64,000 nucleotides of DNA from Bolinopsis microptera (Eukaryota; Ctenophora; Tentaculata; Lobata; Bolinopsidae), in contig NC_087079.1 of the NCBI RefSeq assembly GCF_026151205.1, forward strand, positions 930,001 to 994,000. The letters are read 5' to 3'. The position numbers and the translations under genes were made by a program. Within the stretch, counting starts at the first letter, position 1, and the number at the start of each line of letters is the position of its first letter. Below, one piece after another: positions 4,111-59,511 of the stretch. Under the pieces are notes generated by a model. That model did no database searches and had not been told where the DNA came from. It saw only the letters and a list, made by a program, of their open reading frames with translations.

Positions 4111-7100
4111 AGTAAGGGGAAAAGTGGCATTCCGTTGGATTTGAATGTTCACAAGGATTTCTCAACGGAATATGGTAGTTAAGACCCCTACGAACATAAT
4201 TAGACTTGTTGCCAATTTTGTATCTCAACAGAAACACCACTTTTACCACTTTTTACCACCTTTGTACCACCTGTCTGGTTTGCCAAATATCTTTAGTTGT
4301 GAACGTCGTAAAAGGCTGCAAATTAACCTAGAATGTTTATCTTATCAAGGAGTAAAACTTTTGTGCGAAAAATTTTTACATTGGACAATCAGCTAATTGG
4401 ATAATTACCAATTAGTTAATCACCAAAAAAAGTGAAAATTTTTTATTGGCTCAAAATGATTGAAATCGTTTGAAACACGGAGAAATGTAGTTTTTAGAAA
4501 AACTTCAAAAATTTTTCACTTAAAAATTTTTTTCGAGACTTGGAAAAAAGTTTGAAAATTTAAAAATATTTTTTTCCGCCAAAAGTGATCGAATTGCATG
4601 AAACGTGGATAAAAATGCTTTGCAGAAAAACTTCGAAGATTTTGAGATAGGGGAATACTAAAATCATCAATATTTGAAGTTGGAGTTCAGTAAATCTCGA
4701 CATATTTTAGTAATTAGGAATAGCTTAGCGGAAAGGGCTGAACCTGAAAAAGGTTAACCACACAATATTAGAGTTTCATAACTAATTACAATATTGCTTT
4801 ATCAAATTCCACATAAAGAAACAGCACAAAAGGACCATTTAAGATCGAACCGATTTTACCTGCTGTACTATCATTTTATTGATTTCAATGATCAAAACCT
4901 CTGTACCGTCAATCTTGCCAATCTATACCGGGTATCTGAATGTACCGGACCTCTTATTTACCTCTATAATTAGACCCAGTTGTGCAAGAAATGCGATTTC
5001 TCACAGGGGTTTCTTTTAACTGTGCACTTTTTGTCACTCTCGCAACTCGCAAGAGGCCCGGTATTATAGGGGGGTATAGGAAGCGAGTGTAAATATACCT
5101 TCCATCATCCACTGTAGCTTTTTTGTATTGGTAATGCGCATGCCGCTTCGTTTGCTATGCAAGATACCTCGAATAACCCCCATATGTCATTGCCAGGGTC
5201 GGGATAGAGCTGGAGATAGCATTGAGAGGTTGCTAGAAATAACTAGACTTAGAGTAAACTGGTGGTAGCTGGGTGGTGCTAGCATGGATGTAGCAGAACG
5301 TAGCTACACGGGGTTTCATTGGAGTTGGTTATTTTAATGGCCAAAGAGTGCCGGAACTAAAGTTACTTAAGATTGCAGTTGAGGGGCAGTGTAAACCACG
5401 GTGTAGTCAGGGACACAGAGCTACAGTGCAGGAGTACTGCAAGTGCAAAAGAACAGTGCAAGTGATACAGTATGCAACAGTAAAACGCCGAAGAAGGAGA
5501 TAAGATTGTGGCTGCAGAGGAGGAGAGGAGCTGGAACCTGATTTTGTTTGGGTTGAAAGAAGAGTAGGAAGAAGAGTTTCCTGCTCTGGTAACTGCATTT
5601 TTGGAAGAGGTGGGGTGAGAACTTATTTTCAAGCGACAAGGGTGGGCTGGAAGCAACCAGGTACAGCTATCCGACCTATTAAGATCACCGTCCTGAGCTT
5701 AACAGCCTTTCATCAGAATCTGATGAAAACAGAGAGACTGACCAACCCTTTTTATATTGATTGATCAAAGTGAGTCTCTTTAGCCCTCTTCTTCTTTAGA
5801 GCTTTAGGTTAGTGATCAAACTCTTCGCTACTCGCTCTTCACTGGATCTATCAGGACAGATTCACATCTTTTTAGGTCTCAACCAGCCTTAGTTTTCCTG
5901 TTTTCATCATGTAGTACGTTCTGCTACCTCCATTTTAGCACCACCCAGCTTCCATCAGTTCACTCTAAGTCTAGCTTCGTCGGCGTTTTACTGTTGCAGA
6001 CTGTATCACTTGCACTGTTCTATTGCACTTGCAGTACTCCTGCACTGTAGCTCTGTGTCCCTGACTACACCGTGGTTTACACTGCCCCTCAACTGCAATC
6101 TTAAGTAACTTTAGTTCCGGCACTCTTTGGCCATTAAAATAACCAACTCCAATGAAACCCCGTGTAGCTACGTTCTGCTACATCCATGCTAGCACCACCC
6201 AGCTACCACCAGTTTACTCTAAATCTAGCTATTTCTAGCAACTTTTCAATGCTATCTCCAGCTCTATCCCGACCCTGGCAATGACATATGGGGGTTATTC
6301 GAGGTATCTGGCATAGCAAACGAAGCGGCATGCGCATTCACAATACAAAAAAGCCACAATGGGGGCACAGTGGATGATGGAAGGTATATTTACACTCGCT
6401 TCCTATACCCCCCTATAATACCGGGCCTCTTGCGAGTTGCGAGAGTGACAAAAAGTGCACAGTTAAAAGAAACCCCTTTGAGAAATCGCATTTCTTGCAC
6501 AACTGGGTCTAATTATAGAGGTAAATAAGAGGTCCGGTACATTCAGATACCCGGTATAGATTGGCAAGATTGACGGTACAGAGGTTTTGATCATTGAAAT
6601 CAATAAAATGATAGTACAGCAGGTAAAATCGGTTCGATCCTAAATGGTCCTTTTGTGCTGTTTCTTTATGTGGAATTTGTGGAATGAAAGCTGTATTGTA
6701 ATTAGTTATGAAACTCTAATATTGTGTGGTTAACCTTTTTCAGGTTCGGCCCTTTCCGCTAAGCTATTCCTAATTACTAAAATATGTCGAGATTTACTGA
6801 ACTCCAACTTCAAATATTGATGATTTTAGTATTCCCCAATCTCAAAATCTTCGAAGTTTTTCTGCAAAGCATTTTTATCCACGTTTCATGCAATTCGATC
6901 ACTTTTGGCGGAAAAAAATATTTTTAAATTTTCAAACTTTTTTTTCAAGTCTCGAAAAAAATTTTTAAGTGAAAAATTTTTGAAGTTTTTCTAAAAACTA
7001 CATTTCTCCGTGTTTCAAACGATTTCAATCATTTTGAGCCAATAAAAAATTTTCACTTTTTTTGGTGATTAACTAATTGGTAATTATCCAATTAGCTGAT

Positions 7101-10070: not shown

Positions 10071-10448
10071 TTGGTAGTTTTCAATACTGGTGGAGGAGGT
10101 AATGTAACCATAATAACACTGCCATATAACTTATAAGGCAATATATATAACCATAGTAACACTACAATTCTCTAGAATTTGTAATGTAAAACTCACGAGG
10201 TAGTTTTCAATGGTGGTGGAGGAGGCAATGTAACCATAATAACACTACCATATAAGGCAATATATATAACCATAGTAACACTACAATTCTCTAGAATTTG
10301 TAATGTAAAACTCACGAGGTAGTTTTCAATGGTGGTGGAGGAGGCAATGTAACCATAATAACACTGCCATATAAGGCAATATATATAACCATAGTAACAC
10401 TACAATTATCTGGAATTTGTAATGTAAAACTCACGAGGTAGTTTTCAA
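10071..10448. repeat. 119-bp satellite, part 1 (split by LINE A)
   Basis: About three copies with a period near 119 bp, containing gtagttttcaatggtggtgg, aatgtaaccataataacac and a second aaccatagtaacac. The array resumes after the LINE at 13686. On the minus strand the unit contains ACCACCATTGAAAACTACCTC followed by GTGAGT, the same block that forms the 60-bp satellite at 58.3-59.5 kb, so the two satellites are related. Confidence 0.85.
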
Positions 10449-31950: not shown

Positions 31951-32175
31951 TTGTATCACTGGTCAATGGTCCTGCCTACCTGCCTAGGTCGGTCCAGATG
32001 AAATCAATGGTCTAACAATGTAATATATTGAAGAATCTGTAACTTACTATCACTTTATATCAGTGCAATAAATTTTCATACTGAAAGCTCAAAATAGCAA
32101 TGAAAATAAAGTAAAATAATAACTTATCGGGATCTATACTGTTGCCACCATTTTTTCTTCACCATGGCTGGACTT
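31951..32175. other. Unique AT-rich spacer
   Basis: Nothing recognised between the truncated LINE C and the 58-bp repeat. Confidence 0.5.
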
Positions 32176-32468
32176 AGGTGGCCAAGATAGCATCAAGATG
32201 CTCTGCCTGCCTCTGGGGTATGGCATCCCTACTAGGTCGCCAAGATAGCATCAAGATGCTCTGCCTGCCTCTGGGGTATGGCATCCCTACTAGGTCGCCA
32301 AGATAGCATCAAGATGCTCTGCCTGCCTCTGGGGTATGGCATCCCTACTAGGTGGCCAAGATAGCATCAAGATGCTCTGCCTGCCTCTGGGGTATGGCAT
32401 CCCTACTAGGTCGCCAAGATAGCATCAAGATGCTCTGCCTGCCTCTGGGGTATGGCATCCCTACTAGA
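32176..32468. repeat. 58-bp tandem repeat, five copies
   Basis: Five units with starts 58 bp apart (32181, 32239, 32297, 32355, 32413) containing ccaagatagcatcaagatgc, tctgcctgcctctggggtat and ggcatccctacta. Copies are almost identical (ggtcgcc versus ggtggcc). A reverse frame over it (32348-32704) is repeat translation. Confidence 0.95.
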
Positions 32469-33527
32469 TGCCGGAGTTTACTTTGTGGAGATGATAAAAT
32501 AAAAGTGAGATAAAGGGGGTGAGTAGATGCTGTAGACTGTAGTGCCGATTCGGTGATGACTAGAGAGAATGAAGTGAACAAACATGTGTTTTGTGTATCC
32601 AGGGCTTTGCAGTCTGATCCAGATCCTCTGGCACCATGATTTAAACTGGCGTTTTTGTCGTCGATAGGGTGTTTAATGAAAAATTGTGGAATGGGGCAGA
32701 TCAAAGCCGAAATAACGGAATATGGAGTTGTTAGAGTTTTTTATTTAGAGCATAAAAACTTGTGGTTTTATTTAACATTTAAATATTGGTAATCTGTTAG
32801 TTGTGGTTTCATGATATTCAAATAATGATATTTTGTTGGCGCGTACAATTAATTAACTCTAATCCTGCTCAGATGAGGAGAAAGATTCGGTAAAAGAGAA
32901 AGGCGAGAAGAGAAAGAACGTTCCTTTGTGGAAACCCAACGGTCCCAATGGAAATGGCATGGTCAGTAAAACTTTCTTACTATTATTATTTGTTTTAGAT
33001 CGTTTTGTAAATAAGAAACTTCGATTGTAAAGAACTCAGCTTCATTTAAAATATTAAAAGAGTAGCCAAACGTTGAATATCATTCTCAATTTCAAACATT
33101 ATCAAACAAAAGAAATGGTTAAATCTCACATTTACACCCCTTTAAGAAATTCTAATAAGAATAAGAGCTTCTTGATCCTTGTTTAGATGTAAGAATCTAT
33201 CTTAGTTCCTCGTGGACTATATAATGTATACTATACAATATAATGTTATTCAATGTATATTATACCATATATACCATTTATACAGTATATACAATGTATA
33301 GTATACCATATTGTATACCATGTATAATGTATATACAATATATTTATAGTACACACGTGGTATTATTATCATTAAAAGTGTATTTAATGATAAACCATTT
33401 GTAGGTTTACTGGGGTCTGGTATAGGGAGGCAAAGTTGTCAGGTTTTATTGCAGCTATTTCAGCAGCGTCTGCGCGGCGCAAGCCTTTTCTAGTATCAAT
33501 TAAATAATAACCAACGTAAACTGAAGA
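32469..33527. other. AT-rich intergenic stretch
   Basis: Contains TATA-rich simple sequence at about 33218-33350. One candidate exon (32873-32961) is listed separately. Otherwise nothing is recognised. It includes the downstream flank of the receptor gene; no clear AATAAA was seen just past its stop on the minus strand. Confidence 0.5.
32873..32961 (+). CDS. Possible isolated plus-strand exon
   Basis: An 89-nt segment between taatcctgctcag and gtcagt. It opens with two bases then reads EEKDSVKEKGEKRKNVPLWK, ending PNGPNGNGM, from phase 1 to phase 0. Lysine-rich then Pro/Asn/Gly-rich. The framing is tidy, but no family and no neighbouring exon were found. Confidence 0.3.
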
Positions 33528-34393
33528 TCAAATCATTGCTGAATCGTTTGTCGTATCAATGTTACCAGAACCTATTTTAGCTTCGTATGTTAGTTGCTCC
33601 TTCTTCTTGCCCATGTTGGGCGGATCAAACCATTCCTCAATCACCTCACGACACTTGTACCTAATCCTGCTCTGCAAGCACGTGAGAACAGACTGTCCCT
33701 TCTCTATACTGTCCTGCCGGGCTACGTACAATATTTCCAAGAACACTGTTACAAACGACAGTGAGGCTCCTACCCCCAGAATAAGGAAAAGTCCCACTAG
33801 AATAGGCAACCCGAACTTAGTGTCACTCCCAACTGAGGTAGCACAGGCTGCCACGTCGTCGCTGGAGTACCACTCATCGAACTTGCTGGTGAACCAGCCC
33901 TTCTCCCGGTACCTCAGGAACATCTTGTTAATCAGGGCGGTGTAGGGAGAGTTCACTTGTGTTCCAAACGCCCACTGGTTGTTGAATTTACCCGTTTTTA
34001 TGAGCATTGTTTTGCAGTCGCCCTTGAAATTGTAGGACAGAACCGAACTGTCGTCTATGAAGACAAACCCACCCTCTTTAACTTTGTCAATTCCCTCCTG
34101 AAGGTCCTGCAGTTGCACTCCCTTCTCAGCTATCTTGTTGTACTCCTCATCGTCATGACTGGACATCATGATCTGCAGGTTCCTGTCCTGGATGAGTCCC
34201 CACTTGTAGTCGTTTTGCACCAGCAAGTCAGACAGGCCTCGTATTGTGGCAGTAGACCTGTCTAGAGTGAGATGGGCGGTGAGGTTGGCGGTGTACATGG
34301 AGGTTAGTATCATGATGAACAGCCACCAGATGAAGAGAAGGAACCGCCCTGAGGGGGCTGTTGGGAGAGTGTCTGTTCCTTGCAACACGAACC
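33528..34393 (-). CDS. Ionotropic glutamate receptor, exon 3 (pore, M3, S2, M4, C-tail)
   Basis: Residues 659-946. It starts after CCCCCAG (ending at 34394), completing a Gly codon, and reads GFVLQGTDTLPTAPSGRF, the re-entrant pore loop. The position before the pore Gly is Gln (Q663), the usual Q/R site. M3 follows (676-701) with MYTANLTAHLT, a variant of SYTANLAAF. S2 carries the acidic ligand residue in FIDDSSVLSY (772-773). M4 is at 852-882. The cytoplasmic tail is about 64 residues and ends NDSAMI. In the S2 helix-F loop the Ser-Thr pair that holds the glutamate side chain in AMPA/kainate receptors is replaced by Asn-Leu (QDRNLQIMM), so glutamate may not be the ligand. Confidence 0.9.
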
Positions 34394-37300
34394 CTGGGGG
34401 ATAGTGGGTTAGTTGGGAGAGTGTCTGTTCCTTGCAACACGAACCCTGGGGGATAGTGGGTTAGTTGGGAGAGTGTCTGTTCCTTGCAACACGAACCCTG
34501 GGGGATAGTGGGTTAGTTGGGAGAGTGTCTGTTCCTTGCAACACGAACCCTGGGAGGTATAGTGGGTTAGTTGGGAGAGTGTCTGTTCCTTGCAACACGA
34601 ACCCTGGGGGATAGTGGGTTAGTTGGGAGAGTGTCTGTTCCTTGCAACACGAACCCTGGGGGATAGTGGGTTAGTTGGGAGAGTGTCTGTTCCTTGCAAC
34701 ACGAACCCTGGGGGATAGTGGGTTAGTTGGGAGAGTGTCTGTTCCTTGCAACACGAACCCTGGGGGATAGTGGGTTAGTTGGGAGAGTGTCTGTTCCTTG
34801 CAACACGAACCCTGGGGGATAGTGGGTTAGTTGGGAGAGTGTCTGTTCCTTGCAACACGAACCCTGGGGGATAGTGGGTTAGTCGGGAGAGTGTCTGTTC
34901 CTTGCAACACGAACCCTGGGAGGGATAGTGGGTTAGTTGGGAGAGTGTCTGTTCCTTGCAACACGAACCCTGGGGGATAGTGGGTTAGTTGGGAGGGTGT
35001 CTGTTCCTTGCAACACGAACCCTGGGGGATAGTGGGTTAGTTGGGAGAGTGTCTGTTCCTTGCAACACGAACCCTGGGGGATAGTGGGTTAGTTGGGAGA
35101 GTGTCTGTTCCTTGCAACACGAACCCTGGGGGATAGTGGGTTAGTTGGGAGAGTGTCTGTTCCTTGCAACACGAACCCTGGGGGATAGTGGGTTAGTTGG
35201 GAGAGTGTCTGTTCCTTGCAACACGAACCCTGGGAGGTATAGTGGGTTAGTTGGGAGAGTGTCTGTTCCTTGCAACACGAACCCTGGGGGATAGTGGGTT
35301 AGTCGGGAGAGTGTCTGTTCCTTGCAACACGAACCCTGGGAGGGATAGTGGGTTAGTTGGGAGAGTGTCTGTTCCTTGCAACACGAACCCTGGGGGATAG
35401 TGGGTTAGTTGGGAGGGTGTCTGTTCCTTGCAACACGAACCCTGGGGGATAGTGGGTTAGTTGGGAGAGTGTCTGTTCCTTGCAACACGAACCCTGGGGG
35501 ATAGTGGGTTAGTTGGGAGAGTGTCTGTTCCTTGCAACACGAACCCTGGGGGATAGTGGGTTAGTTGGGAGAGTGTCTGTTCCTTGCAACACGAACCCTG
35601 GGGGATAGTGGGTTAGTTGGGAGAGTGTCTGTTCCTTGCAACACGAACCCTGGGGGATAGTGGGTTAGTCGGGAGGGTGTCTGTTCCTTGCAACACGAAC
35701 CCTGGGAGGTATAGTGGGTTAGTTGGGAGAGTGTCTGTTCCTTGCAACACGAACCCTGGGGGATAGTGGGTTAGTTGGGAGAGTGTCTGTTCCTTGCAAC
35801 ACGAACCCTGGGGGATAGTGGGTTAGTTGGGAGAGTGTCTGTTCCTTGCAACACGAACCCTGGGGGATAGTGGGTTAGTCGGGAGGGTGTCTGTTCCTTG
35901 CAACACGAACCCTGGGAGATAGTGGGTTAGTTGGGAGAGTGTCTGTTCCTTGCAACACGAACCCTGGGAGGTATAGTGGGTTAGTTGGGAGAGTGTCTGT
36001 TCCTTGCAACACGAACCCTGGGGGATAGTGGGTTAGTTGGGAGAGTGTCTGTTCCTTGCAACACGAACCCTGGGGGATAGTGGGTTAGTTGGGAGAGTGT
36101 CTGTTCCTTGCAACACGAACCCTGGGAGGTATAGTGGGTTAGTTGGGAGAGTGTCTGTTCCTTGCAACACGAACCCTGGGGGATAGTGGGTTAGTCGGGA
36201 GAGTGTCTGTTCCTTGCAACACGAACCCTGGGGGATAGTGGGTTAGTTGGGAGAGTGTCTGTTCCTTGCAACACGAACCCTGGGGGATAGTGGGTTAGTT
36301 GGGAGAGTGTCTGTTCCTTGCAACACGAACCCTGGGGGATAGTGGGTTAGTTGGGAGGGTGTCTGTTCCTTGCAACACGAACCCTGGGGGATAGTGGGTT
36401 AGTTGGGAGGGTGTCTGTTCCTTGCAACACGAACCCTGGGGGATAGTGGGTTAGTTGGGAGAGTGTCTGTTCCTTGCAACACGAACCCTGGGGGATAGTG
36501 GGTTAGTTGGGAGGGTGTCTGTTCCTTGCAACACGAACCCTGGGGGATAGTGGGTTAGTGTCTGTTCCTTGCAACACGAACCCTGGGGGATAGTGGGTTA
36601 GTTGGGAGAGTGTCTGTTCCTTGCAACACGAACCCTGGGGGATAGTGGGTTAGTTGGGAGGGTGTCTGTTCCTTGCAACACGAACCCTGGGGGATAGTGG
36701 GTTAGTTGGGAGGGTGTCTGTTCCTTGCAACACGAACCCTGGGGGATATAGTGGGTTAGTTGGGAGAGTGTCTGTTCCTTGCAACACGAACCCTGGGGGA
36801 TAGTGGGTTAGTTGGGAGAGTGTCTGTTCCTTGCAACACGAACCCTGGGGGATAGTGGGTTAGTTGGGAGAGTGTCTGTTCCTTGCAACACGAACCCTGG
36901 GGGATAGTGGGTTAGTTGGGAGAGTGTCTGTTCCTTGCAACACGAACCCTGGGGGATAGTGGGTTAGTTGGGAGAGTGTCTGTTCCTTGCAACACGAACC
37001 CTGGGGGATATAGTGGGTTAGTTGGGAGAGTGTCTGTTCCTTGCAACACGAACCCTGGGGGATAGTGGGTTAGTTGGGAGAGTGTCTGTTCCTTGCAACA
37101 CGAACCCTGGGGGATAGTGGGTTAGTTGGGAGAGTGTCTGTTCCTTGCAACACGAACCCTGGGGGATAGTGGGTTAGATGGGAGAGTGTCTGTTCCTTGC
37201 AACACGAACCCTGGGGGATAGTGGGTTAGTTGGGAGAGTGTCTGTTCCTTGCAACACGAACCCTGGGGGATAGTGGGTTAGTTGGGAGAGTGTCTGTTCC

Positions 37301-40300
37301 TTGCAACACGAACCCTGGGGGGTAGTGGGTTAGTTGGGAGAGTGTCTGTTCCTTGCAACACGAACCCTGGGGGATAGTGGGTTAGTTGGGAGAGTGTCTG
37401 TTCCTTGCAACACGAACCCTGGGAGGGATAGTGGGTTAGTTGGGAGAGTGTCTGTTCCTTGCAACACGAACCCTGGGGGATAGTGGGTTAGTTGGGAGAG
37501 TGTCTGTTCCTTGCAACACGAACCCTGGGGGATAGTGGGTTAGATGGGAGAGTGTCTGTTCCTTGCAACACGAACCCTGGGGGATAGTGGGTTAGTTGGG
37601 AGAGTGTCTGTTCCTTGCAACACGAACCCTGGGGGATAGTGGGTTAGTTGGGAGAGTGTCTGTTCCTTGCAACACGAACCCTGGGGGATAGTGGGTTAGT
37701 TGGGAGAGTGTCTGTTCCTTGCAACACGAACCCTGGGGGATAGTGGGTTAGTTGGGAGAGTGTCTGTTCCTTGCAACACGAACCCTGGGAGGGATAGTGG
37801 GTTAGTTGGGAGAGTGTCTGTTCCTTGCAACACGAACCCTGGGAGGCATAGTGGGTTAGTTGGGAGAGTGTCTGTTCCTTGCAACACGAACCCTGGGGGA
37901 TAGTGGGTTAGATGGGAGAGTGTCTGTTCCTTGCAACACGAACCCTGGGGGATAGTGGGTTAGTTGGGAGAGTGTCTGTTCCTTGCAACACGAACCCTGG
38001 GGGATAGTGGGTTAGTTGGGAGAGTGTCTGTTCCTTGCAACACGAACCCTGGGGGATAGTGGGTTAGTTGGGAGAGTGTCTGTTCCTTGCAACACGAACC
38101 CTGGGGGATAGTGGGTTAGATGGGAGAGTGTCTGTTCCTTGCAACACGAACCCTGGGGGATAGTGGGTTAGTTGGGAGGGTGTCTGTTCCTTGCAACACG
38201 AACCCTGGGGGATAGTGGGTTAGTTGGGAGAGTGTCTGTTCCTTGCAACACGAACCCTGGGGGATAGTGGGTTAGTTGGGAGAGTGTCTGTTCCTTGCAA
38301 CACGAACCCTGGGGGATAGTGGGTTAGTTGGGAGAGTGTCTGTTCCTTGCAACACGAACCCTGGGGGATAGTGGGTTAGTTGGGAGGGTGTCTGTTCCTT
38401 GCAACACGAACCCTGGGGGATAGTGGGTTAGTTGGGAGAGTGTCTGTTCCTTGCAACACGAACCCTGGGGGATAGTGGGTTAGTTGGGAGAGTGTCTGTT
38501 CCTTGCAACACGAACCCTGGGGGATAGTGGGTTAGTTGGGAGAGTGTCTGTTCCTTGCAACACGAACCCTGGGAGGGATAGTGGGTTAGTCGGGAGGGTG
38601 TCTGTTCCTTGCAACACAAACCCTGGGGGATAGTGGGTTAGTTGGGAGAGTGTCTGTTCCTTGCAACACGAACCCTGGGAGGGGTAGTGGGTTAGTTGGG
38701 AGAGTGTCTGTTCCTTGCAACACGAACCCTGGGGGATAGTGGGTTAGTTGGGAGAGTGTCTGTTCCTTGCAACACGAACCCTGGGGGATATAGTGGGTTA
38801 GTTGGGAGAGTGTCTGTTCCTTGCAACACGAACCCTGGGGGATAGTGGGTTAGTTGGGAGAGTGTCTGTTCCTTGCAACACGAACCCTGGGGGATAGTGG
38901 GTTAGTTGGGAGAGTGTCTGTTCCTTGCAACACGAACCCTGGGGGATAGTGGGTTAGTTGGGAGAGTGTCTGTTCCTTGCAACACGAACCCTGGGGGATA
39001 GTGGGTTAGTTGGGAGAGTGTCTGTTCCTTGCAACACGAACCCTGGGGGATAGTGGGTTAGTTGGGAGAGTGTCTGTTCCTTGCAACACGAACCCTGGGG
39101 GATAGTGGGTTAGTTGGGAGAGTGTCTGTTCCTTGCAACACGAACCCTGGGGGATAGTGGGTTAGTTGGGAGAGTGTCTGTTCCTTGCAACACGAACCCT
39201 GGGGGATAGTGGGTTAGTTGGGAGAGTGTCTGTTCCTTGCAACACGAACCCTGGGGGATAGTGGGTTAGTTGGGAGAGTGTCTGTTCCTTGCAACACGAA
39301 CCCTGGGGGATAGTGGGTTAGTTGGGAGAGTGTCTGTTCCTTGCAACACGAACCCTGGGGGATAGTGGGTTAGTTGGGAGAGTGTCTGTTCCTTGCAACA
39401 CGAACCCTGGGGGATAGTGGGTTAGTTGGGAGGGTGTCTGTTCCTTGCAACACGAACCCTGGGAGGTATAGTGGGTTAGATGGGAGAGTGTCTGTTCCTT
39501 GCAACACGAACCCTGGGGGATAGTGGGTTAGTTGGGAGAGTGTCTGTTCCTTGCAACACGAACCCTGGGGGATAGTGGGTTAGTTGGGAGAGTGTCTGTT
39601 CCTTGCAACACGAACCCTGGGGGATAGTGGGTTAGTTGGGAGGGTGTCCGTTCCTTGCAACACGAACCCTGGGGGATAGTGGGTTAGTTGGGAGAGTGTC
39701 TGTTCCTTGCAACACGAACCCTGGGGGATAGTGGGTTAGTTGGGAGGGTGTCTGTTCCTTGCAACACGAACCCTGGGGGATAGTGGGTTAGTGTCTGTTC
39801 CTTGCAACACGAACCCTGGGGGATAGTGGGTTAGTTGGGAGAGTGTCTGTTCCTTGCAACACGAACCCTGGGGGATAGTGGGTTAGTTGGGAGAGTGTCT
39901 GTTCCTTGCAACACGAACCCTGGGGGATAGTGGGTTAGTTGGGAGAGTGTCTGTTCCTTGCAACACGAACCCTGGGGGATAGTGGGTTAGTTGGGAGGGT
40001 GTCTGTTCCTTGCAACACGAACCCTGGGGGGTAGTGGGTTAGTTGGGAGAGTGTCTGTTCCTTGCAACACGAACCCTGGGGGATATAGTGGGTTAGTTGG
40101 GAGAGTGTCTGTTCCTTGCAACACGAACCCTGGGGGATAGTGGGTTAGTTGGGAGAGTGTCTGTTCCTTGCAACACGAACCCTGGGGGATAGTGGGTTAG
40201 TTGGGAGAGTGTCTGTTCCTTGCAACACGAACCCTGGGGGATAGTGGGTTAGTTGGGAGAGTGTCTGTTCCTTGCAACACGAACCCTGGGGGATAGTGGG

Positions 40301-40349
40301 TTAGTTGGGAGAGTGTCTGTTCCTTGCAACACGAACCCTGGGGGATAGT
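34359..40349. repeat. 52-bp minisatellite made of the exon 3 splice-acceptor region
   Basis: About 115 head-to-tail copies fill about 95% of the receptor's intron 2 (34394-40679). On the minus strand each unit reads CTAACCCACTATCCCCCAG and then GGTTCGTGTTGCAAGGAACA, GACACTCTCCCAA. That is a branchpoint-like CTAAC, a short tract and AG, followed by the first 33 nt of exon 3. Most copies are identical; variants have +2 or +4 bases (ggtata, agggata), ttgggaggg, gtcggg or gatggg. Any unit used as acceptor other than the innermost shifts frame (52 is not a multiple of 3) and meets TAA within one or two units. Confidence 0.97.
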
Positions 40350-40406
40350 GGGTTAGTTGATAGTAGTGTAACTATGGTAACTAGTAGTGTAACTATGGTA
40401 ACTAGA
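40350..40406. repeat. Dispersed motif pair beside the 52-bp array
   Basis: Two copies of tagtagtgtaactatggtaa + ctag directly follow the last 52-bp unit, inside intron 2 of the receptor. The same motif lies in receptor exon 2 and in the satellites. Confidence 0.8.
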
Positions 40407-40679
40407 TGATAGGTCACACAGGTCAAAAGGAAATCGTGGCACGTGTTGAATCGCGAGTGAGATTTGGAACAATGAGAACATTTTGCCTCGTTTGGCTTGT
40501 CGTGGCGATGCGATTTTTGGCCTAAATAATCGCGATTTTATTTTGTCCTTGCTTAGTAATTAGTATAGTTATAGTGGTCTGTCGTATTCTCTTTAGATTA
40601 TTTGTGGTTTATTGATGGTTGGGGGTTAGTTGTGAAACGTCAGTTTGAATTCCAAAAAAACAAATGTTAACAGACTTAC

Positions 40680-41980
40680 CCGTGCCGATAAGCCAAGCGG
40701 AGTTGTAGTAAGAGAGCTCGTTGAGATCGTCGTCCTCTTCAACCTTCTCCACCAAACAGTGGTATTCCTTCGTATCTACAAACCTGCATTTCCTTTCTGC
40801 CTTTATCTTCCTTCTATACAGGCATTTAACACAGGTGCAAACCTGCATAGCGTGTATTTTCCTCCCATAGCTTCCAAATGGAGAGAATTTGCTGAAGAAC
40901 GTCGTCAAGAAACCAATCACTAAGATGAGACCTATGATGGTTAGCCACACTGAGATTTCAAAAGGTTCTAGAAAGAAGAAGTAGTTTGTTGAACTCTTGG
41001 AGGACTTAATGTACGTGATGATTGAAGCTTGGTCCTCAAATATTGAAGATGTGTAGTCGATATATTGTGACCGCTCCGTGTTGATTGACAAGACAATCGT
41101 TAGATCAGTTTTCCGATCCAAAATATCTCCAATCATTCCGTTCCATCTTCTAGTTTCCGGATCCAGTCCTCCGTATTTGTTATCTGCAGGCCTGACATAC
41201 TCGTAGGTGAAGTTTAGGTCCTGCTGAAGATGACTGATGATATCAGGGTTCCAACCAAACCAGCAGTCCGGAGAAGACGTGTTCCTCCCCTCACACTCCG
41301 GCTTTAAGAAGGCTATAGGTGGTTCAGGGACAATACCTATCCTGAGATGGTATCCTGTAAGAGAACTGCCGATACCAGTGGGGGACGCTGTACCACCTCC
41401 CAGGAACTGAACGTCCTTCCTCCCTGTCCACGGTACCTTTTCATCGGACAGATCACGTAGCCCGCTGTTGTCCCATGTCCCCACCTTTATGAAGCCGTCT
41501 CGTTTAAAATTCACTATGTCATATGATGGGTCTCCCAGGCCCAAATGTATTCCTGCATCAAGGTTCCCAACTATTTTATTATACAATGTCCGACCCTCTT
41601 CCCAGAAAGTTGCTGATTTGCAGTTAAGGGAGGGGGAGCTATGGTAACTAGTAGTGTTACTATGGTAACTAGAGGGGGAGCTACTCCAGGAACCTCTGTC
41701 CAGATCCGTCAGAGAGAGGTGGACCACTTTCAGAGCAGTTGCTATTTTAACAGATGGTAACTGCAGATCCGACCCGGGCCCCCCTGATAAGATATAGGAG
41801 TCTGCTAGGTCGTTATACTGTTGAGAGCCTTTACCGTAGTAAGGAAGGGTTCCTATCAGTCCTGTGTAGAAGGAGGGGTAGGAGGAGTTCTGATAGGCAA
41901 TACTCTCCGGTCTGGCCGTTATTCCGTCCGTAGTCAGCCAGATAAAGGAGTCGTCCATCAACCCCATAGCTTGAGCTTCC
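40680..41980 (-). CDS. Ionotropic glutamate receptor, exon 2 (end of ATD, S1, M1)
   Basis: Residues 225-659, from the acceptor CCAATCTCAG (ending at 41981, phase 2) to a strong donor G|GTAAGTCTG (from 40679, phase 1). It contains the second lobe of the amino-terminal domain, then S1 from about 435 (YHLRIGIVPEPPIAFLKP). The ligand arginine R528 is in LSINTERSQYIDYT, resembling the GluN1-type arrangement. M1 is at 567-587. The M1-pore loop is long (about 70 residues) with four cysteines (606, 608, 611, 623) in CTCVKC...KC and an acidic stretch. Residues 324-344, Ser-rich and about 20 long, are encoded by an inserted copy of the dispersed repeat motif. Confidence 0.9.
41628..41690. repeat. Repeat motif inserted in receptor coding exon
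   Basis: gagggggagct occurs twice, flanking atggtaactagtagtgttac and tatggtaactag. The insert adds an in-frame Ser/Tyr/His-rich tract (SSYHSNTTSYHSS) to the amino-terminal domain. The core is the same GTAGTGTTACTATGGTAAC motif found in introns and satellites of this window. Confidence 0.75.
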
Positions 41981-42649
41981 CTGAGATTGGATACACGTTA
42001 TTACTTTAATGTACATTGTACAGGGCACCTTCAACTGCTAGTTTTTGTATCGGAGTATAATTCGTCAGAATAGTTTGACAGTCGCGGGCTCTATGTTTAA
42101 CATCCAGAATTCAGCTGGATTATCTATTAACTGCACAAAGGAAGCAGTACATTCATTACAGGACAATCCTACTTCAGGTTCATTGAGTAAATCGTACCCG
42201 CTATTTGCGTTACACCTGGCAAGTATCTGGACTAATGATAACTTAGGATCCCCATTAATCATTAATTCCTCTCACTACATTCATTGCTGACAGTATTTCA
42301 TGTGAGATATACATACATTTAACTCATTCGTTGTTTGATTGCGGGAAACATTGATCTTGTCCTTGAGATATGTACATTTAAACGTTGTACCAACGCAGGT
42401 TGTCTACCTATAGAGCTATAGTTAAACGTTAATTCCACAACATTTCGCGTTACCTGACCTTTCCCATGTGGCTGCAAAACACAAACTTGCAATTATATCC
42501 TCTTTGAACCTTGTCTTATTAATCTTTACATCTCGTGAAGATCTTTACATACAGCCATTATTACTACTTGTGGTGCAATATACCACTATTATTTTGCCCA
42601 AGTTTAATCAAAACTTCCATCGCTAACTTGTAAAGACCTCTACCCAGCC

Positions 42650-44331
42650 ATGAAGAACAAGAAGAATTGTACTTGCTTCGGACTCCTCATCGTCTTCCTT
42701 TCAGTGAACATCCTCGTAGCAGTATTGTTTTACCCTCTCGATGGCATTACCCAGATTAGTATTGTAGCTGTTCAGGCAAACAATAATCAGAACAGGACAT
42801 TTCCTCACAATAATCAGAACGGGACATTTCCTCACAATAATCAGAGCGGGAAATTACTTCGCAATAATCAGAGCGGGACATTTCCTCACAATAATCAGAA
42901 AAGCATACGGCTCCCTCAGTCTAATGTAACTGAAGGTACAGCAAATTCAGAACAACCATCACGTACTTTATTCCGTGTACAGTTTGTAACGGAGGGAAGG
43001 TGTCTCGGAATATCGGGCACGAAGAAACCTGTTGTTAAATTCTGTAACCCACTTGAGAGAGATACTTTTGTTTTCATGGATGGTAAGATAAGATCGGAGG
43101 AACTCAACTTATGTTTAAGTGAGGATCGTTCTGATAACAAATTATTGTTGTTTCTGGATTGCGGAGAGACGGCTAGATTCGAACTTGTCGATGAGATCCT
43201 TGCCAAGATACCGGACAATGAATCTGAGGAGGAAACTTATTTTTCAGCTTTGAATGACACAGAAGATTCGGGATGTCCTTCAACAAACAGTCCTGAAATA
43301 GGTGGCAAAGTTGGGTTAACAACCTGCAGGATAGAGGCTTCAAAAGTAGGGCTACTGGAGGAAATATCATTCCTCAAAGATAGAGCAGCTCTTCTTCTAC
43401 CACTCCCGCCTGATGACACGTGTAATTTCCCTGCTTGTGGTGTGAACAAACGCGCACCTCCTGTAAAAACCTTGTTTGCTAATCAGATAGAGAGATGTGG
43501 TGACTTGTCAGAGTGTGTTACCGTGGTTACTAAGACTGCTAGAAGACCGCTATTCGTTATCAGACTTGCTAAGAGTCTGCGAAAACAGTTTAAACTTGAC
43601 CTTCCTATGATAGTCATTGACGACGGTCCTGAAGGTTATAGCTCTGAGATAATGGATGAGATCGCCAAGTTCCCTAATATGCAATACGTCATCTCCTCTC
43701 CAGATCTAGGCATTGCCGAGGGGAGGAATATAGGTCTACGAATGGTGAAGACTAAATATTTCTTCCTATTAGATGATGATATGGTCGCTACAGAGAGGAC
43801 AGAAGTTACTAAATTGGTGGAGATATTGGACACCACCGACGCCACTCTCGTCGGGGGAGGGTCTACCTTGCAGGTTTCTTAAGGTTTGGTCTGGATCTTC
43901 ATGGGAAAACAACTTTATTCCACTATAAAAACACATGTATTACTGCTAACCAAACTGTAACAGGGTTTCCTGATTGTTTTAGATGTGAAATCACCGCCAA
44001 TATATTCGTGGCAAGAACACAAGATGCTATAGCGGTAGGAGGTTGGAGCAAAGAACTTAAAATAGGTGAGCACAAAGATTTCTTCCTGCGGTTGAAGGGG
44101 GCGGGAAAGAAAGTAGTGTTCTGTCCGGCATTTACCGCAGCAAACGTTCACAGCTCAAAGGGAGTCGAGTTTGTGGGAGGATTAACAGAAGTGTTCAGTC
44201 GAGAGAAGTACAAGTTTCTAAGGAATCTTCGTTTAGAAATCATGGAAACGAAGTTTTGTAACCACTGGAACATTAAACAATTAATAGGGACAAAACACCA
44301 AAGCCCTGTTTGGATTGATGACATTGACTAG
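42650..44331 (+). CDS. GT12-type beta-1,4-GalNAc transferase-like gene with one frameshift
   Basis: A type II membrane protein: short cytosolic start, TM at residues 9-30 (FGLLIVFLSVNILVAVLF), a stem with five 9-residue repeats (NNQNGTFPH-like, some with N-x-T sequons), and a ricin-like region at about 103-195 (RCLGISGTKKPVV ... LNLCLSED). The catalytic domain has VTVVTKTARRPLFVIRLAKS, GIAEGRNIGLRMVKTKYFFL and a metal-binding DDD at 375-377. The frame breaks after 43860 at a G run (gtcgggggagggtc). From 43861 the next frame is open to 44331 and keeps the family pattern (TGFPDCFRCEITANIFVART, AIAVGGWS, GEHKDFFLRLKGAG). One missing base therefore explains the break. Expected role: adding GalNAc to a glycan in the Golgi. 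The gene is intronless and lies inside receptor intron 1 on the other strand. Reference-type products are about 530-560 residues, which fits. Confidence 0.75.
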
Positions 44332-44936: not shown

Positions 44937-45610
44937 TTGAAAATCTTTTTCGCGTATTTGCCACCACAGTTGAGAACAATAACCTTGGTGAGCGAATCTT
45001 TGATAAGTTGAAGCTGCTTCTGGAAGACAGGCAGATGATTTGACAGGTTCATCCGCACATCAAAGTGCTGAACATCCTTGATGCTGAAGTTATCGTCTTG
45101 GGACGCTAAATATTGCAGATACACGATACTGTTTATTCCATAATCATCTGCTGAGGCGAGGATTGAGAACTCGTACCATTTATACTCCTTCAACAAGTCG
45201 AATATAGCCCGACTCTGGTGAGCGTCTGAGGGGGACAGCCGGATCTCAAAATCATCTGATCTGTGAAAGTCAGTGAAAGGATTAGTGGCAACTGCAGCTA
45301 TGAGAGGAAGATGGAACTGATTGGCGAGGTTAGCCTGGATATCTGTTAAAGTAGAGTCACATGCTGATATCACAGCTACCACCTCCTGCTCCAGTAAAGC
45401 ACAGAAGCAGGTCTGGAGACTGAGGTAGGTGGAGTCATGGTACTGCTCCACTAGCTCCACAGTAGTGTCACTGCTGTCTAGCCTCGAGATGGTGTACTCA
45501 GCTAGTCTCCTGATGGCATCCGCCCCCTCCTCATCTTCAGAATCGAGGATGAGTCCTATCTTGTAGCCATGACAACACGCGAAAACAAGGACGAAGAGAT
45601 GCGGTAACAT
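44937..45610 (-). CDS. Ionotropic glutamate receptor, exon 1 (signal peptide and ATD)
   Basis: Start Met at 45610. Residues 1-15 (MLPHLFVLVFACCHG) look like a signal peptide, followed directly by YKIGLILDSEDEEGADAI, the LIVBP-like amino-terminal domain (AVISACDSTLTDIQANLANQ, FHLPLIAAVATNPFTDF, LKEYKWYEFSILASADDYG). It ends at a GTGAGT donor (from 44936, phase 2), and joining to exon 2 completes KKIFKEAQAMGLMDD. The three exons (674, 1301 and 866 nt) sum to 947 codons including the stop, a normal length for the family (about 900). The product is a ligand-gated cation channel subunit of the plasma membrane. Intron 1 (41981-44936) hosts the opposite-strand glycosyltransferase. Confidence 0.9.
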
Positions 45611-58226: not shown

Positions 58227-58318
58227 GTTACCTTACGGAGAGCACAGTGTTTGAAGACCCTGCTATCAAGTACGACAATATGGGGGACGTATCCCCCACC
58301 ACCATTGAAAACTACCTC
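58227..58318 (+). CDS. Possible exon ending at the first unit of the 60-bp satellite
   Basis: After gatgtaccacag, a 92-nt segment reads YLTESTVFEDPAIKYDNMGD and then VSPTTIENYL, entering in phase 1 and ending in phase 0 at CTC|GTGAGT, a consensus donor. The last ten codons lie in the first satellite unit. It is tyrosine-bearing and acidic, like a receptor tail, but no family is recognised and no partner exon is visible. Composition and splice framing support it moderately. Confidence 0.4.
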
Positions 58319-59465
58319 GTGAGTTTTTAGTGTTACTATGGTTACATTGTATCCCCCACCACCATTGAAAACTACCTCGTGAGTTTTTAGTGTTACTATG
58401 GTTACATTGTCTCCCCCACCACCATTGAAAACTACCTCGTGAGTTTTTAGTGTTACTATGGTTACATTGTCTCCCCCACCACCATTGAAAACTACCTCGT
58501 GAGTTTTTAGTGTTACTATGGTTAGATTGCCTCCCCCACCACCATTGAAAACTACCTCGTGAGTTATTAGTGTTACTATGGTTACATTGTCTCCCCCACC
58601 ACCATTGAAAACTACCTCGTGAGTTTTTAGTGTTACTATGGTTACATTGTATCCCCCACCACCATTGAAAACTACCTCGTGAGTTTTTAGTGTTACTATG
58701 GTTACATTGTCTCCCCCACCACCATTGAAAACTACCTCGTGAGTTTTTAGTGTTACTATGGTTACATTGTCTCCCCCACCACCATTGAAAACTGCCTCGT
58801 GAGTTATTAGTGTTACTATGGTTACATTGTCTCTCCCACCACCATTGAAAACTACCTCGTGAGTTTTTAGTGTTACTATGGTTACATTGTCTCCCCCACC
58901 ACCATTGAAAACTACCTCGTGAGTTTTTAGTGTTACTATGGTTAGATTGCCTCCCCCACCACCATTGAAAACTACCTCGTGAGTTTTTAGTGTTACTATG
59001 GTTACATTGTATCCCCCACCACCATTGAAAACTACCTCGTGAGTTTTTAGTGTTACTATGGTTACATTGTCTCCCCCACCACCATTGAAAACTACCTCGT
59101 GAGTTTTTAGTGTTACTATGGTTAGATTGCCTCCCCCACCACCATTGAAAACTACCTCGTGAGTTTTTAGTGTTACTATGGTTACATTGTCTCCCCCACC
59201 ACCATTGAAAACTACCTCGTGAGTTTTTAGTGTTACTATGGTTAGATTGCCTCCCCCACCACCATTGAAAACTACCTCGTGAGTTTTTAGTGTTACTATG
59301 GTTACATTGTCTCTCCCACCACCATTGAAAACTACCTCGTGAGTTTTTAGTGTTACTATGGTTACATTGTCTCCCCCACCACCATTGAAAACTACCTCGT
59401 GAGTTTTTAGTGTTACTATGGTTATATTGTCTCCCCCACCACCATTGAAAACTACCTCGTGAGTT
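58289..59465. repeat. 60-bp satellite carrying a 5' splice site in each unit
   Basis: About 20 copies of exactly 60 bp: ctcccccaccaccattgaaa, actacctcgtgagtttttag, tgttactatggttacattgt. Each contains CTC|GTGAGT and the dispersed TTACTATGGTTAC motif. It is related to the 119-bp satellite at 10.1-13.8 kb, reverse orientation. Because 60 is a multiple of 3 and one minus-strand frame lacks stops, a 467-codon reverse frame (20-residue repeats) runs through it; that is not considered a gene. Confidence 0.95.
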
Positions 59466-59511
59466 TTAATACTTTCAACACTACTATATAACAAATAATT
59501 TGAGTTCAGGG

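Follow-up and report, generated by a model that had tools for sequence, protein, structure and literature searches.

The second intron of a probable glutamate-receptor gene in the ctenophore Bolinopsis microptera is almost entirely a tandem array of 115 units, each of which combines a branch-site-like motif, a 3' splice site and the 33 nt that open the next exon; only the unit adjoining the exon body keeps the receptor frame whole. We think it likely that this array is a mirage minisatellite which is tolerated as intron, with the innermost acceptor supplying the full-length channel. The window analysed is the whole stretch of 64,000 nt taken from one contig (G000:C8:930001-994000), and the assembly searched holds 264.65 Mb in 232 contigs; positions below are window coordinates unless a contig or locus is named.

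The gene lies on the minus strand and has three exons with predicted junctions, 45610-44937, 41980-40680 and 34393-33528. The junctions are splice-consistent, with a continuous frame from exon 1 into exon 2, and the joined frame of the three exons is 946 aa long with no internal stops, while exons 1 and 2 alone code for 658 aa. There is one Pfam match per exon. Exon 1 (44937..45610) carries the start and the first part of the amino-terminal domain (receptor ligand-binding region, ANF_receptor PF01094, E 2.9e-23) and is followed by a GTGAGT donor. Exon 2 (40680..41980) contains the rest of this domain, S1, M1 and the start of the pore loop (ligand-gated channel glutamate/glycine-binding site, PF10613, E 5.7e-19), followed by a GTAAGT donor, and exon 3 (33528..34393) contains the end of the pore loop, M3, S2, M4, the C terminus and the stop (Lig_chan PF00060, E 3.2e-20, along with PDB matches). 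The best solved relatives of the receptor are ML032222a, which we take to be a Mnemiopsis receptor, and 4zdm (‘glutamate receptor kainate-like protein’), presumably also from a ctenophore; both are the best PDB matches of exon 2 as well (3.6e-25 for 4zdm). This is probably, as judged from these domains and relatives, a glutamate-receptor gene. An AATAAA soon past the stop (33445..33450, minus strand), a possible poly(A) signal by motif only, suggests that exon 3 is terminal, as it probably is. Antisense within intron 1, on the plus strand, lies a glycosyltransferase-family-2 frame (PF00535 match, 42608-44331), overlapped by a second frame for which no family match was found. An interspersed motif, AGTTACCATAGT(A/T)ACACTACTA, occurs within coding exon 2 (SYHSNTTSYHSS, ~41630-41680) and again just beyond the array (40361-40405).

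Intron 2 (34394..40679, minus strand) is 6286 nt long according to the predicted splice junctions and the frame. TRF reports a single array at 34360-40359, with a period of 52, 115.1 copies, 97% matches and a score of 11337. The first-pass annotation had described about 115 tandem copies of the acceptor with the first 33 nt of exon 3, and this number is confirmed; its placement within intron 2 and the start of exon 3 also holds, while the limits need correction from 34359-40349 to those given by TRF. Units are 52, 54 or 43 nt long, and the 52-nt unit joins 19 intronic nt (CTAAC...CAG) to the opening 33 nt of exon 3 (34361..34393). On the gene strand there are 114 exact GGTTCGTG units and one GGTTTGTG unit, which makes 115 acceptors, the outermost at 40337 and the innermost at 34393. 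Between the GGTTCGTG sites there are 113 spacings, mostly of 52 nt (94), followed by 54 nt (16) and 43 nt (2), and the single spacing of 106 nt is a two-unit step over the variant GGTTTGTG copy. CAG is present in all 115 units and CTAAC in the 14-nt upstream stretch tested at all 115 acceptors, in agreement with the unit anatomy proposed earlier (CTAAC, tract, CAG and exonic part); the branch-like A is found 15 nt before the last intron base, counting unit positions. An identical 22 nt ahead of the exon is shared by 84 of the 115 acceptors. The description of intron 2 as a ladder of near-identical acceptors is also apt. The unit spans the intron-exon boundary, with both a splice site and an exon piece, and the array continues unbroken into the authentic boundary, where the innermost unit is itself the start of exon 3 at 34393. 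The branch-site/acceptor segment of this unit, CAACTAACCCACTATCCCCCAG (34394..34415, minus strand), which we call authentic on the basis of frame, is in the same position as in related genes, with near-identical residues.

A 30-nt acceptor pattern, allowing up to 3 mismatches, has 0 forward and 99 reverse matches in the 264.65-Mb genome, 98 of them in the array and one in a second copy of the locus described below, and the reversed-pattern control has 0 matches in the same genome, so that chance is not plausible as an explanation. A transposon carrying the array was considered and rejected, as the exon itself borders the array on its inner side and matches to the 30-nt pattern are limited to the gene and the second copy. 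Recursive splicing sites likewise represent several internal acceptors in one long intron, and they need AG followed immediately by GT. This reading was rejected for the receptor array, since the units read CAG and then GG (CAG/GGTT), with GT one base further, and AG/GT is absent.

We joined exon 2 in silico to each of the 115 acceptors and read the resulting frame length. The innermost acceptor gives 946 aa and the remaining 114 lead to a stop at 684-730 aa, so the earlier proposal that only the innermost keeps the frame is correct. What had been suggested for one step out, a short peptide and then a stop, is not what happens there: the next acceptor outward causes a frameshift into exon 3 and the frame ends at 730 aa. 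The frames from the other 113 end at 684 aa (4), 687 (92), 705 (16) or 723 (1), and endings in TNPLSPRVRVARNRHSPN appear from two steps out (the sequence was viewed for steps 2-7 and lengths for all 115). Transcripts using outer acceptors, where made, would encode receptors ending in or just past the pore loop. If exon 3 is terminal, the stops of these transcripts would lie in the last exon and exon-junction-type decay would not be expected to clear them. The earlier statement that the spliceosome must choose the last acceptor would follow only on condition that full-length receptor is produced from the gene.

Which acceptor would then be used? Splice-site competition classically tends to favour the acceptor nearest to the donor, which here is the outermost one, so that a preference for nearness to the donor would give a truncated product. 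In this scenario the gene would be effectively silenced, producing mostly truncated receptors, and the intact frame would be a leftover of recent decay. Apart from the 5'-proximal preference, this is favoured by our fold model of seven acceptors, where the branch region of the outermost is the most open (unpaired 0.90; innermost 0.36, others 0.30-0.36). Nevertheless we find silencing very improbable, because the 946-aa frame is intact over three exons with well-scoring receptor domains, and because the outcome reported for lancelet repeats of this kind, in the accessible text, points the opposite way (PMC3087553). From the intact frame and this precedent we infer by analogy that the innermost acceptor would be the main one used in the receptor gene. 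RNA structure as the chooser was rejected, as the innermost acceptor is no more open than internal ones, either in folds of one, three or four units or in the seven-acceptor partition function.

The history of the array can be approached through related genes. Six of them, four in a cluster at C3:15.86-15.93M, one at C3:14.21M and one at C8:14.86M, carry intron 2 at the same place and their acceptor is unrepeated in the stretches viewed, indicating that a single acceptor was the ancestral state, from which the array is derived. We propose that the segment duplicated in tandem measured 52 bp and was made up of the branch-site-like CTAAC, a short C-rich tract and CAG from the 3' end of intron 2, together with the opening 33 nt of exon 3. 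Seeding probably proceeded via CAAC microhomology at both ends of the segment: CAAC can be read on the minus strand at the exon-side limit of the array (34360..34363) and at its outer end (40356..40359, matching the 4 bp at 34360-34363), and with CAAC on both sides of a single-copy segment, slippage or end joining would yield exactly this 52-bp duplication. Growth to ~115 units would have proceeded through slippage and unequal exchange; multi-unit blocks do repeat in the exon-side 1.6 kb of the array (TRF period 314, 5.1 copies, L047), as unequal exchange predicts. Each unit would be a whole acceptor by construction, rather than selection having built the ladder. That all 115 acceptors are intact would likewise be predicted by selection for the ladder, and youth of the array also explains it. 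The innermost acceptor would probably be favoured by the adjoining real exon body and full-length channel would still be made, with the ladder tolerated as intron and presumably near-neutral.

Exon 3 also matches C8:1026893-1027769, at 96%. This belongs to a second copy of the locus within C8:1016001-1046000 (L019, L017, L018), which has the appearance of an unpurged haplotype that was joined in place. The copy is clean on its downstream side: where alignments to the matching window stretch exceed 200 columns, identity is 99.3, 99.6 and 99.8% in the three main ungapped ones (884, 781 and 595 columns) and 97.4% in a gapped one of 419 columns, and between these alignments lie stretches that only the second copy contains. 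From the side of exon 3 on, the second copy is insertion-rich, with 334 inserted versus 1 deleted base in one alignment of 1484 columns, resembling raw long reads in this respect. By wrap-around alignment its array has ~149 units, 68 of which are of the 43-nt type, compared to 115 and 2 in the window; as a control, the same procedure gave 115 and 2 for the window array and likewise for each of two simulations of it with added noise. Judging from these alignments, the second copy is probably the other haplotype, partly filled with an unpolished read, although it could be a recent duplicate, and the difference in array length is to be read as probably allelic on the same terms. Also variable between the copies is a 58-bp array at 32175-32467, located upstream of the third frame for a reverse transcriptase, at 31834-29457 on the minus strand, with 5 units in the window and 7 in the second copy. 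Other tandem repeats of the window, containing GTAGTTTTCAATGGTGGTGG, are found at 10073-10448 and 58292-59467, each immediately preceding a non-LTR retrotransposon-like frame (from 10442 and from 59470 onward), and resemble a monomeric 5' region.

The error-rich second copy raises the question of whether the unit count, or even the entire ladder, was made or inflated by the assembler, especially as the B. microptera assembly is described, in the accessible part of its report, as built from long reads with wtdbg, its gaps then being closed using error-prone reads and the sequence polished with Illumina data (PMC10232365). We consider this extremely unlikely, as the array is found between the same two exons in two separately assembled versions and the unit variants recur in multi-unit blocks. 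The exact counts of 115 and 149 may be off.

Boundary repeats are not confined to this gene, as we found six more, at predicted boundaries, in three other genes of the same genome. Four are in a glutamate-receptor gene on C4 (minus strand; L050 35-1545; L055 117-384, 502-787 and 1439-2147). An intron of 2242 nt there opens with a donor array of 28 units of 54 bp, the exonic part of which is 45 nt coding RIHKNIETVGDLLQS, and ends in 17 acceptors, with 15 spacings of 44 nt and a last one of 23, so that ladders of donors and of acceptors occupy the two ends of a single intron. The acceptor ladder is the weakest of the six cases, its common exonic part being clear for GAAT only. GT is present at 23 of the 28 donor positions and AT at 4, while the last unit is out of register and, by eye, also without GT; this loss fits a lack of selection for decoys. 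An in-frame ladder was rejected here: the 54-nt unit keeps the frame, but 27 of the 27 donors past the first meet a stop inside the second unit. The same gene also contains two copies of a 144-bp acceptor repeat that includes 14 exonic nt, and six copies of a donor, spaced 45-46 nt apart and including 9 exonic nt. In the related receptor at C8:14.86M the donor of the equivalent intron is doubled (25 bp x2, L024 ~4715-4766, with 21 exonic nt and one mismatch; the same place is found in L049), which is possibly a young mirage. Finally, TRF rows reveal a 72-bp acceptor repeat in three copies, with 33 exonic nt, at a predicted boundary of a C11 myosin gene (L061 2836-3058), the joined exon piece of which matches Myosin_head at 2.6e-9. 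This stretch gives no alignment with its neighbour L060, so the C11 case lacks a one-copy reference. Both kinds of boundary are affected in one genome, donors in the C4 and C8:14.86M genes and acceptors in the C4 and C11 genes.

How frequent are such repeats? Two domain searches provided 38 loci (30 Lig_chan and 8 Myosin_head), and an array with a period of at least 15 was found within 60 nt of a domain match in three of them: the receptor gene, the C4 gene and L058, where the array is of low complexity, at the end of the exon match, and was rejected. The C11 array is further than 60 nt from the domain match and was found by reading TRF rows. In a scan of the edges of exon matches to the receptor, 98 of 120 were far enough from locus ends to be testable (some places are counted twice), and the three positive rows were the C8 donor, twice, and an in-frame coding repeat (L034), rejected as a boundary repeat. 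The scan added only one splice-boundary place and, as it missed the C4 gene, it is not exhaustive. As a check we selected three stretches (27.2 kb, with 28 Myosin_head matches) from the domain-match table before viewing the sequence and read six sub-stretches; none of the 33 TRF rows from these stretches clearly showed a boundary repeat that includes exonic sequence. Inspection of the arrays in L028, L029, L035 and L043 showed no recognisable boundary repeat, and the array in L064, with 2 copies from a donor and no exonic part, was rejected. By these predicted boundaries, mirages recur in this genome yet not at every boundary.

Does array length matter for the gene? Use of outer acceptors could depend on it, in which case the array would act as a splicing rheostat, copy number setting the amount of full-length channel, an alternative already raised in the first-pass annotation. 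In support, 114 of the 115 acceptors lead to truncation, and the haplotypes probably differ in array length (115 versus ~149) as well as in unit composition. A human precedent is the VNTR in ABCA7 intron 18, with 12 to ~427 units and a premature stop if a unit is retained: in the accessible text, skipping of the next exon, exon 19, rises and expression falls with VNTR length, whereas retention of one unit, at ~2%, is independent of it (PMC5954066). The latter argues against length-dependent use of outer acceptors, as do the lancelet repeats, reported not to disturb splicing (PMC3087553, PMC3902484), and the absence of any sign of selection for decoys, some of the C4 donors having lost GT. Overall we regard such tuning as unlikely. 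A broader proposal, which we still find doubtful, is that boundary-spanning minisatellites reflect a continuing mutational process in ctenophores that makes ladders at both ends of introns, with haplotype copy number setting heritable whole-receptor output; if true, array copy number would underlie heritable variation in the amount of whole receptor.

The favoured reading, a tolerated mirage with full-length channel made from the innermost acceptor, is of interest for splicing in general. Spliceosome choice among identical acceptors has usually been studied in built constructs with few sites. The receptor array offers such a choice in nature, among 115 near-identical branch-site/acceptor units where exon-side and donor-side use predict different proteins, and is accompanied by a second probable allele of other length. 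What makes the case interesting and open to test is the mechanism by which the innermost site would prevail, if indeed it prevails.

The receptor array is best filed as a large mirage minisatellite, boundary-spanning repeats being already known in lancelets and, on the donor side, in human ABCA7, and it extends mirages from lancelets to a ctenophore. Among the amphioxus mirages, the one in Adh3 reportedly shows somatic instability. As described in the accessible text, amphioxus mirages are found in the globin genes BflGb6 and BflGb9, in Adh3 and in TnC, with similar repeats in PGBD5, and they occur at both 3' and 5' boundaries and vary between haplotypes (PMC3087553, PMC3902484); haplotypes with 6 and 3 units are mentioned, and RT-PCR is said to suggest regular splicing (PMC3087553). 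The likeness is in the tandem repeats across an intron-exon boundary which carry splice signals. The differences are in the phylum and in scale, since 115 to ~149 units of 52 bp compare to 3-6 duplicates of 150-160 bp in BflGb6; regular splicing, suggested there by RT-PCR, would be predicted for the receptor array from its intact frame. Boundary-spanning repeats in ctenophores were not found among the literature matches listed, most subscription papers being outside the search. Intron gain in the potato RdRp gene likewise involves, in the part of the report available, a tandem genomic duplication bringing extra splice signals (PMC4974935), although the receptor intron is an old intron that has grown rather than a demonstrated new one. 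The ABCA7 VNTR resembles the receptor array in starting at a splice site, which its copies can therefore carry. However, in the accessible text it is a donor-side array, with a 25-bp unit that opens with the donor GT and is without an exonic piece, and its effect on splicing of the next exon has been shown (PMC5954066), whereas the receptor array is on the acceptor side.
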